From a virus, in IMG/VR virus record IMGVR_UViG_3300035698_001800, positions 1-27,787 of that record: a stretch of 27,787 nt of DNA. One strand, written 5' to 3'. Both the position numbers and the translations under genes were made by a program. Below are positions 21,643 through 23,473 of this stretch, in pieces. A model generated the notes under the pieces. It was not told the origin of the DNA. It saw nothing but the letters and a program-made list of their open reading frames with translations, and searched no databases. Each line of letters opens with the position of its first letter. Within the stretch, counting starts at the first letter, position 1.

Positions 21643-22058
21643 CTTATTATTCTCTTCACCATATTCTCAAAGAATTTATTTACTGCGTCTTGAGCTTTCC
21701 TGACAACCGCCTGCAAAGTATACCAACCAGTTGCCGTGTGTGTTCTTGTCTGAGGCCCACCCTTGCCCGGTACTTTCTTATCACTTATCACCCACGGAGC
21801 GTAAGGGGTTGGGGATCCAATCGTGCCAACAACATCCCTACCAATAGTTTTTACTTTCGTGTTTATCCCTCTTCCAAGATTGCCAGTTCTTTTATATGTG
21901 CTTCCAAATGGAGCCGCTGGATAAGACGGTACTTTTCCATGAACATAATGAGCAGCTTTCCTGGTTGTCTTTTCAATTTCCCTTGTTAGCTTAGGATGAG
22001 ATAATCGCATTAGCTTTGCTGTTAATTTCTTAACTCCGAATATTTTAAAGTAGTTCAT
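21639..22058 (-). CDS. HK97 gp10-like head-tail connector protein
   Basis: 139 residues, overlapping the minor head gene as ATGA. Family features are the basic N-terminal helices, T-R-K-A-A-H-Y-V-H-G-K-V-P, then P-A-A-P-F-G-S-T-Y-K-R-T-G-N-L-G-R-G-I and the strand V-V-G-T-I-G-S-P-T-P-Y-A-P-W-V. These proteins help finish the neck or tail attachment. The order portal, minor head, gp10 family is usual. Confidence 0.8.
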   Translation of the reverse strand: MNYFKIFGVKKLTAKLMRLSHPKLTREIEKTTRKAAHYVHGKVPSYPAAPFGSTYKRTGNLGRGINTKVKTIGRDVVGTIGSPTPYAPWVISDKKVPGKGGPQTRTHTATGWYTLQAVVRKAQDAVNKFFENMVKRIIR

Positions 22059-23473
22059 GGCTCATTCACCACTGGTTGAATCCAACAACGGCAGTTATGT
22101 GTTATAATCCCATTAGTAGAATATAAACCATAATCATCACATTGGAGGTCGTACACATGCCCGCTAAAATCGAAATTCCTAATCTTGACAATCTTCTCAA
22201 AAGATACGTTGCCGGAGAACCTGAGCAAAAACTTGCTCGTGAGACTGGTATCAATCGTGCTACTTTCAGGAGCAGACTCATTGAATACGGCATTAACCCC
22301 AGAGGAAACTCCGAAGCTGAAAAAATCAGATGGTCTAAAATGACACCTGATCAGAGATCTTATCAAGTTAATGCGGCGCATGATGCCGTCAGAGGAAAAA
22401 CCAAAAGTATTGAGTGGAAGCGCAAGCACGCTATTACCAGAGAGCGCACCTTGACTGGCGCAGTTCCTATTGAGGCTATCCTCGCGAATCAACTTATTGG
22501 TTCTGGATTTAGTATTACTCAGCAAAAGGCTCTTGGGATATATAACATTGATATCGCCGTGAATATTCCTTCCATCGCTATAGAAATCTTCGGGGGTGGA
22601 TGGCATGCTTACGGAGCTCATAAGATCAGATTTTTCAAACGCAGTAATTATATCTTCAATCATGGCTGGTCTTTGTTGGTCATTTGGATTGACAAGAGGC
22701 GCTATCCCCTCAACATCAACGGCATAGACAAGGTCATTTCTTTTATCAAGCAATCCAGCATTAACCCAACCTCTATTGGTCAATATGGGGTGGTTCTCGG
22801 TAACGGTAATATTGCTCCCGTTTCCAGTTGTTATCTCAACACACCCGCCATCGTAAAAAGACTTTGCTGCAGCTTTTACTTCACCGACTGGTAAAACTTC
22901 GTTTCCTGGCAATACACAATTAACATGTGCTGGTGGTCTATCATAAGAGCTACTATCATAATTACTAATGAACATAGCGTTGAGCGGTACTACCTGTCCA
23001 TCCAGACCCATACAAATAGGGCATACGTCCATCCCGGCAGTCATCCACTTCTTACTATCAACCACCTCACTTGCTTTCCACGTTTCCAGATTCCCGCCTG
23101 CATAAGCGTTAGTAACTTCTGTAACTGCGATTCTCTTTGCCCTGACCTTACCGAACACTTGAAGAAACTGCGGATCTTTTTCTAATGCGCTCAATGGCTC
23201 ACCACTCGCAACCCATTCGGAAACTTTGTCTTGAATCATCTTTTGTGTTGAAGAGCCTATTACTGATGTTTCTATTAATGTATGATCTTTTGCCCAATTT
23301 ACAACTGCATCATTGACCAGCCCCCAATGAACGCCAATTCCAACGGCGGCTTCTTTTCCCATCTTTACAGCCAGCGCGGTTATAAGCGGTAATAGGATCT
23401 CATACAGTATGTCGGCTTCATCCATCCAGAAGAAGCCATCAAAGACTGATTTTAGTTCAGGCTTATCGATCAT
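22055..23473 (-). CDS. Mu gpF-like minor head protein precursor with intein
   Basis: The 472-residue precursor consists of N-extein 1-185, intein 186-460 and C-extein 461-472. The extein belongs to the Mu gpF-type head morphogenesis proteins: K-R-I-A-V-T-E-V-T-N-A-Y, W-M-T-A-G-M-D-V-C-P-I-C, then D-R-P-P-A-H-V-N. After splicing, H-V-N joins C-R-C-W-I-Q-P, restoring the conserved H-x-N-C-R-C motif with the first of its two Cys at the splice point (C461 as +1). The mature protein would be 197 residues. It follows the portal and two small genes, the usual place. Unspliced protein would lack the motif, so splicing should be needed for function. A plus-strand nuclease gene overlaps the intein. Confidence 0.92.
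   Translation of the reverse strand: MIDKPELKSVFDGFFWMDEADILYEILLPLITALAVKMGKEAAVGIGVHWGLVNDAVVNWAKDHTLIETSVIGSSTQKMIQDKVSEWVASGEPLSALEKDPQFLQVFGKVRAKRIAVTEVTNAYAGGNLETWKASEVVDSKKWMTAGMDVCPICMGLDGQVVPLNAMFISNYDSSSYDRPPAHVNCVLPGNEVLPVGEVKAAAKSFYDGGCVEITTGNGSNITVTENHPILTNRGWVNAGLLDKRNDLVYAVDVEGIAPLVNPNDQQRPAMIEDIITAFEKSDLMSSVSMPSTPEDFYSDGRNIHGDINVIYPKSLLLSNTKSRTNKLIREDSLNRNCASQGALSGNSVLALPLNTFGFSSDGIMRRINLIRSLIRCHFRPSDFFSFGVSSGVNAVFNESAPESSTIDTSLTSKFLLRFSGNVSFEKIVKIRNFDFSGHVYDLQCDDYGLYSTNGIITHNCRCWIQPVVNEP
22100..22149 (+). promoter_or_regulatory. Promoter and SD of the antisense nuclease gene
   Basis: The plus strand reads TGTTATAAT at 22100-22108, an extended -10 with perfect TATAAT; no well-spaced -35 is seen. 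GGAGGT at 22144-22149 lies 7 nt before the ATG. On the intein strand the -10 is part of the codons for I-I-T of block G (G-I-I-T-H-N), and the SD is part of D-L-Q of block F. Thus the control signals sit in conserved protein motifs. Confidence 0.55.
22157..22894 (+). CDS. Vsr/DUF559-like homing endonuclease, antisense inside the intein
   Basis: The only plus-strand gene in the window, 245 residues from ATG 22157 (GGAGGT 7 nt upstream; a TTG at 22142 is the alternative). Residues 10-45 form a helix-turn-helix (Y-V-A-G-E-P-E-Q-K-L-A-R-E-T-G-I-N-R-A-T). A basic linker with N-S-E-A-E-K-I-R-W follows. Residues 110-178 form the nuclease: N-I-D132-I-A-V, I-A-I-E143-I-F-G-G-G-W-H150, then R-F-F-K-R-S-N-Y-I-F-N-H-G-W-S-L-L-V-I-W. 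This is the EDxHD/Vsr-like fold pattern, known in I-Bth0305I-type homing enzymes and in Vsr-like nucleases near split inteins. The 65-residue tail lies opposite intein blocks A-B and has no known domain. It lies fully inside the intein, so it is presumably the homing enzyme of this element. Confidence 0.85.
   Translation: MPAKIEIPNLDNLLKRYVAGEPEQKLARETGINRATFRSRLIEYGINPRGNSEAEKIRWSKMTPDQRSYQVNAAHDAVRGKTKSIEWKRKHAITRERTLTGAVPIEAILANQLIGSGFSITQQKALGIYNIDIAVNIPSIAIEIFGGGWHAYGAHKIRFFKRSNYIFNHGWSLLVIWIDKRRYPLNINGIDKVISFIKQSSINPTSIGQYGVVLGNGNIAPVSSCYLNTPAIVKRLCCSFYFTDW

Follow-up and report, generated by a model that had tools for sequence, protein, structure and literature searches.

The window analysed here, an IMG/VR virus record of 27,787 bases, contains two conserved genes that overlap on opposite strands. 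The minus strand encodes the 472-residue precursor of a MuF-like minor capsid or head morphogenesis protein (22055..23473 (−)), identified by matches to Pfam Phage_Mu_F (E 2e-7) and to PHROG head and packaging families. This precursor is interrupted by an intein of 275 residues that reaches from Cys186 to Asn460 (22094..22918 (−)), as delimited from the translation, a match to the NCBIfam model intein_Cterm above its cut-off and an AlphaFold model. The Pfam model Intein_splicing also scores above cut-off in the precursor (E 9.4e-13). The upstream extein ends in ...PPAHVN, and the downstream extein reads CRCWIQPVVNEP. All elements of a splicing domain are found: blocks A, B, F and G with C186, TVTENH as the TxxH motif of block B, IITHN, and C461 as Cys+1. 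The names and roles of these blocks follow in part general usage. They are also set out in the relevant portion of PMC5050341. Based on the motifs and the model, we predict that the intein excises itself from the capsid protein. Both splicing halves of the model reach pLDDT values of at least 90, and residues 130–163 and 167–222 of the intein fall below 50. Judged by this low pLDDT, the middle of the intein is predicted to be disordered, apparently carried along as a passenger of the nuclease that is encoded opposite.

The plus strand carries a gene for a 245-residue Vsr-like, putative homing endonuclease with an N-terminal helix-turn-helix (22157..22894 (+)), assigned from Pfam, relatives and the predicted fold. 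This gene lies wholly within the intein, and its codons face the intein codons one to one; including the stop, they stand opposite residues 194–439 of the minus-strand protein. A preliminary description of this DNA had held that blocks F and G are the only intein motifs free of nuclease codons. This statement is inexact. The first eight residues of block A (186–193, including Cys1) are also free, and block F is not: the CAT codon of His439 is the complement of the nuclease ATG, which the preliminary description had missed.

We assign the plus-strand protein to the Vsr-like nucleases because of structural re-alignment of its model, a weak Pfam match and a set of invariant residues. The AlphaFold model, built on an alignment of 72 sequences, has a mean pLDDT of 89.7. 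Foldseek alone gave no significant match to this model (E 0.03–0.09). Structural re-alignment returned Vsr itself (1cw0, Z 12.2, 116 aligned residues), NGO0050 (3hrl, Z 10.8) and the homing endonuclease I-Bth0305I (3r3p, Z 10.7, 96 aligned residues). The Vsr-type PD-(D/E)xK-like fold spans residues about 100–223, and the N-terminus aligns with Hin-type helix-turn-helix domains (Z 4.7). The family PF18741 (REase_MTES_1575) is matched by the window nuclease with E 1e-5 and 25.9 bits, under the curated cut-off of 38.2, and by 41 of 72 relatives at E ≤ 0.01, the best of them reaching 1.9e-10. Tyr129, Asn130, Asp132 and Glu143 are invariant in 92 nuclease sequences.

In 21 pairs, the counts of substitutions at positions 1/2/3 of the nuclease codons are 432/224/620 in the first segment of the gene, 414/199/648 in the second and 293/87/297 in the last, the one opposite the N-terminal splicing blocks of the intein. 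The bias toward the third position of the nuclease frame holds across its first three quarters. Conserved nuclease motifs stand opposite conserved intein motifs: xVIRGxG at the nuclease C-terminus is matched with block B, and the active-site Glu with the Phe of DFHGD. The latter motif (window 22574–22585; intein residues 112–115, alignment A10) lies on the intein strand opposite the active-site stretch V/I-A-V-E, and its Phe, His and Asp are each conserved in at least 90% of the sequences in that alignment. DFHGD is probably a shadow of the nuclease rather than a motif of the intein.

Distribution of the antisense nuclease

A tblastn search with the nuclease gave matches in 129 of 50,697 phage records, 120 of which cover at least 80% of the query. 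The hosts of these phages include Salmonella, Pseudomonas, Gordonia, Klebsiella, Escherichia, Vibrio and others. Together with related-locus searches and annotated records, the matches yielded 178 loci, which are partly redundant. The in-register frame is the longest frame opposite the nuclease in all 178, and it has the length of an intein in 177. An Acinetobacter phage (Obolenskvirus) carries a free-standing, annotated copy of the nuclease (L015:455-1348 (+)) with no intein opposite, the opposite frame measuring only 111 residues. Among the 26 annotated regions that we fetched, this is the only one in which the nuclease is shown as a gene. In the record of Salmonella phage PK1, exceptionally among those viewed, the antisense CDS (L319:1444-2253 (+)) is entered as a hypothetical protein with no name.

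The reverse search started from the N-terminal side of the intein with the pattern T[VI]TxNH[PM][IV]L. The C-terminal end was located in 75 of 80 cases, and all 75 carry an antisense nuclease (E 4.3e-23 or better); since the search pattern lies opposite a portion of the nuclease C-terminus, the sample retains some dependence on the nuclease. The 75 cases comprise 60 distinct peptides, 55 of which are new and form our second set. No intein of this class without a nuclease was found in these searches. In one locus (L308) the antisense nuclease looks decayed, with only 16 residues open and a score of 74 bits vs about 184–358 in the others.

Several loci lie in other surroundings. Two of them, L061:715-4113 (−) and L073:523-4056 (−), hold a like intein with antisense nuclease in a fusion of UDG and DNA polymerase A, not in a capsid gene. 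Plasmid III of Candidatus Promineifilum breve (L009; Chloroflexota, 40.8 kb) carries phage head genes along with the closest named relative of the nuclease (43%), and may be a phage-plasmid. A cyanobacterial genome (L183) contains two intein C-terminal motifs (IVYNLTVEQ... and YVYNLETET...) in one open frame, perhaps representing two inteins within one protein. As to search strategy, no pattern suitable for searching emerged from the wide nuclease alignment (A1), and subfamily alignments were used instead. A scan of genome contigs with a single nuclease protein returned nothing, and the same scan with subfamily alignment A2 returned four loci.

Codon choice was analysed in a main set of 104 non-redundant representatives at 70% nuclease identity, corresponding to 104 of 105 clusters after the L035 cluster was dropped. 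Twelve of the 178 loci have no block F/G count: nine lack a C-terminal profile match, L020 and L035 lack a recognised block F, and L015 is the free-standing copy. Expected numbers were derived from the codon use of each locus on its own minus strand outside the intein; since the loci are related, the counts are not fully independent. The definition of a Shine-Dalgarno (SD) sequence and the −10 weights used in these counts follow common usage. As controls we used 26 bacterial inteins without an antisense gene, after four of 30 had been removed as antisense loci. These controls are mostly cyanobacterial because few Actinomycetota control inteins were found.

Synonymous codon choice matches a start codon, an SD sequence and TATAAT

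The ATG formed opposite His439 (22157..22159 (+)) is preceded, at a distance of 7 nt, by the SD sequence GGAGGT (22144..22149 (+)). As the preliminary description had recognised, this SD lies over D442-L443-Q444 of block F (GAC CTC CAA). The same description had pointed out an extended −10 within the codons of block G, and T458-I457-I456 (ACA, ATA, ATT) indeed read as TGTTATAAT on the other strand (22100..22108 (+)). It had also reported no visible −35, and this is borne out in the window, where the 26 bases upstream of TATAAT are TGAATCCAACAACGGCAGTTATGTGT. The arrangement GGAGGT-N7-ATG occurs once in the window vs 0.28 expected, and TGnTATAAT occurs five times vs 2.06 expected. With this phage's codon use the probabilities are 0.017 for GAC CTC, 0.60 for CAT and 0.054 for ATT ATA ACA. 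Within the window by itself, none of these matches is more than mildly unusual and the −10 is weak on its own, so the weight rests on the comparison with relatives.

In the relatives, synonymous codon choice proved to be position-specific. Among the 104 inteins of the main set, the block F His is encoded by CAT, which provides ATG on the other strand, in 81 of 85 cases vs 40.5 expected. As an internal comparison, the His of block G in these inteins has CAT in 21 of 49 (Fisher 1e-11). The block F Leu is encoded by CTC, corresponding to the GAG of the SD, in 66 of 90 cases vs 16.7 expected; control inteins without an antisense gene use CTC in 1 of 18 (1.4 expected). ATG, GTG or TTG stands opposite the block F His position in 87 of 104 inteins, and 61 of these 87 have an SD core at the proper spacing vs 13.5 ± 3.3 in synonymous sampling. 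Where no start is found opposite block F, an SD is present at that place in just 5 of 17. In two loci (L109 and L040) the start is displaced 15 nt further on and is preceded by a new SD; start and SD shift together. The second set of 55 inteins gave similar numbers: CAT in 40/47, CTC in 36/48, and an SD in 36/48 with a start and in 1/7 without. The idea that codons of splice motifs act as control signals for the other strand is thus strongly supported for translation, in most of the 104 inteins and again in the 55.

Selection for expression of the antisense gene may reach beyond silent codon choice to the amino acids of block F, and we lean towards this view. Since one position of the block supplies the start codon of the nuclease, it would be kept as His (CAT giving ATG, CAC giving GTG) or Gln (CAA giving TTG); the following D/N-L would be kept as well, since they supply its ribosome-binding site. 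His occupies this position in 85 of 104 inteins of this class vs 0 of 26 control inteins. Inteins with Tyr, Pro, Lys or Trp at the position have their nuclease start at another site, and most of them show no SD in the usual place.

The proposal of a promoter in block G is supported in a subset. Exact TATAAT falls on the Ile-Ile of block G in 16 of 104 inteins of the main set and in 13 of 55 of the second; ATT-ATA, which reads as TATAAT, is used in 16 of the 35 inteins with Ile-Ile at this place vs 2.3 expected, and in 0 of 11 such controls. The Ile at −4 prefers ATT and the Ile at −3 prefers ATA (Fisher 9e-4; second set 1.2e-3). Of the 104 inteins, 37 contain an exact TATAAT in the stretch from block F to where block G ends, vs 15.0 ± 3.0 in a shuffle of codon positions (maximum 27 in 1000), and 15 contain TGnTATAAT vs 2.3 ± 1.5. 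The intein-coding strand of the same stretch contains TATAAT in 2 of 104. The inteins have a higher AT content at third positions than their exteins, which accounts for part of the TATAAT excess over a plain codon-use null (7.5 expected); this null was therefore considered too permissive and gave way to the position shuffle (15.0 expected). In the second set, ATT-ATA was found in 13/20, TATAAT in 22/55, TGnTATAAT in 10/55, and TATAAT on the coding strand in 4/55.

The main places of TATAAT, counted from the end of block G, are offset 9 (16 inteins), offset 26 (9) and offset 28 (10). Most copies outside block G, namely those at offsets 26 and 28, lie 29–32 nt before the start. At offset 28, the second −10 position of the relatives, the window has TATAAA, one mismatch from TATAAT (22122..22127 (+)). 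Escherichia phage Snoke (L008) carries TGCTATAAT on block G. A −35 at a spacing of 16–18 nt is not enriched in the relatives (mean best match 2.75 vs 2.51 of 6, p = 0.30). The comparison of codon choice in inteins with and without the antisense gene, also suggested in the preliminary description, gave an excess of CTC and ATT-ATA with the gene and none in the controls. Relatives that have the antisense gene without these signals do exist, with TATAAT absent in 67 of 104 and the SD core absent in 26 of 87, so the signals are common but not universal.

Synonymous divergence at conserved residues was examined in 20 pairs, one of the 21 (L168/L170) being omitted; pairs with unequal length between blocks F and G contributed extein codons only. 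Changes were found in 2/18 start His codons, 8/59 SD codons and 8/54 codons at block G −4 to −2, vs 48/166 codons between the signals, 11/39 codons of the V-Y spacer and 98/223 codons of the C-extein. The signal codons differ from the spacer and in-between codons with a Fisher value of 0.0014.

Proposed function and alternative readings

An intein-free allele exists for a relative of the window element (L024), and this finding concerns the capsid gene of L024, not the window's own. When joined, the L024 exteins match Salmonella phage FSL SP-101 unbroken with 98.6% identity; the capsid gene measures 1128 bp in FSL SP-101 vs 1860 bp with the intein. The unit of intein and nuclease fits a homing element, and the nuclease fold, its position and the empty alleles suggest that the enzyme cleaves DNA and promotes homing.

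We consider it very probable that the locus is a two-strand mobile intein, with splicing encoded on the minus strand, a Vsr-like nuclease on the plus strand, start signals in block F and, in a subset, a −10 in block G. The splicing domain (blocks A, B, F and G) would remove itself from the capsid protein. The separate helix-turn-helix and Vsr-like nuclease, encoded in codon register, would most likely cut intein-free alleles, into which the intein would then be copied. This nuclease would be translated separately, since the block F codons for H-V-Y-D/N-L-x read backwards provide an SD, 7 nt and ATG. In the subset that includes the window, transcription may depend on a promoter −10 within block G (I-I as ATT-ATA), as the letters of this motif suggest; in others, TATAAT would lie over the residues just before block G.

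Three other explanations must be weighed against this reading. It is conceivable, if unlikely, that the translation signals of block F are real and that AT-rich codons give rise to the −10 of block G as a by-product, another antisense promoter, further upstream or elsewhere, driving the nuclease. The region is AT-rich at third positions, a −35 is not enriched, and most relatives have no TATAAT on block G, all of which a by-product would accommodate. Against it stand the 37 inteins with TATAAT vs 15.0 ± 3.0 in a shuffle that keeps the codon pool of the region, the distinct preferences of Ile −4 for ATT and Ile −3 for ATA in both sets, the 15 inteins with TGnTATAAT vs 2.3, and the presence of TATAAT in just 2 of 104 coding strands. 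We give hardly any credence to the explanation that the antisense frame simply mirrors the intein, kept open and conserved through register complementarity with no nuclease being made. It is true that the shared register is open on both strands and that conserved motifs of the nuclease lie opposite conserved motifs of the intein, but the confident Vsr-like fold of the antisense product, the substitutions favouring the nuclease third codon position, the selected start and SD codons and the free-standing annotated copy in the Acinetobacter phage without an intein opposite all speak for a protein. Moreover, disorder is predicted in the middle of the intein and not in the nuclease.

The nuclease could also be real and expressed but no longer homing, and kept as a stand-alone defence or repair enzyme. 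The Vsr fold is common to repair and restriction-type enzymes, and cleavage by the present nuclease is something we infer. This alternative seems improbable in view of the strict association of the nuclease with inteins, the near-identical intein-free allele, the insertion of a like element in the unrelated UDG–PolA gene and the similarity to I-Bth0305I.

If the two-strand mobile intein is the correct reading, the coding of two proteins in exact register on both strands is widespread, and a splicing motif doubles as a translation start and partly as a promoter. The loci would then offer many natural replicates for the origin and constraint of overlapping antisense genes. Phage inteins that are listed without a nuclease, for example in the Jersey group of Salmonella phages, would gain a candidate mobility enzyme that annotation has almost always missed. 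It appears rather likely to us that these elements form a whole class of mobile inteins in which one set of codons serves splicing on one strand and homing on the other, with the nuclease strand also shaping the splice motif.

Relation to known mobile elements

In the accessible portions of the literature, our search found no antisense-coded nuclease in an intein; a preprint on Actinobacteriophage inteins with non-canonical architecture (10.1101/2025.01.02.630785), cited in PMC11855218, may cover part of the subject. For the UPWr_S Salmonella phages, a capsid-gene intein and a separate homing endonuclease (gp63) are named in PMC8425127, the relevant section of which mentions no antisense gene.

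Inteins with an in-frame endonuclease of the LAGLIDADG or HNH type likewise combine blocks A, B, F and G and a nuclease in one DNA element, and they too have intein-free alleles. In contrast to these inteins, the nuclease described here is a separate polypeptide on the opposite strand with its own start signals, and the insert of the splicing protein is predicted to be disordered. Vsr-like homing endonucleases such as I-Bth0305I, for which EDxHD is the catalytic motif, share the fold of the catalytic domain; the likeness seen here is one of fold. To our knowledge, genes for endonucleases of this kind run in the sense direction and lie in introns or between the genes of split inteins, whereas the present one is antisense and lies within an intact intein.

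Phages of the ShiLan type are known to conceal a homing nuclease in an overlapping reading frame. According to the relevant part of PMC11855218, an HNH homing endonuclease lies in an overlapping frame of the phage methylase on the same strand, with no ribosome-binding site found. Both cases concern a nuclease concealed in an insertion of a host gene. The ShiLan-type element as described in that part has no splicing domain, and the window element shares neither this feature nor the same-strand HNH nuclease: it has the opposite strand, the Vsr type, a complete-looking intein, and a ribosome-binding site and start within a splice motif. Opposite-strand coding has been reported for L2066 group I introns in nuclear rDNA, where an antisense homing endonuclease gene is expressed and active (PMC9548176, in the portion concerned). 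There, too, a homing endonuclease gene lies opposite a self-splicing element. However, that element is an RNA intron with no doubly coded protein, whereas the element opposite the present nuclease is a protein-coding intein.
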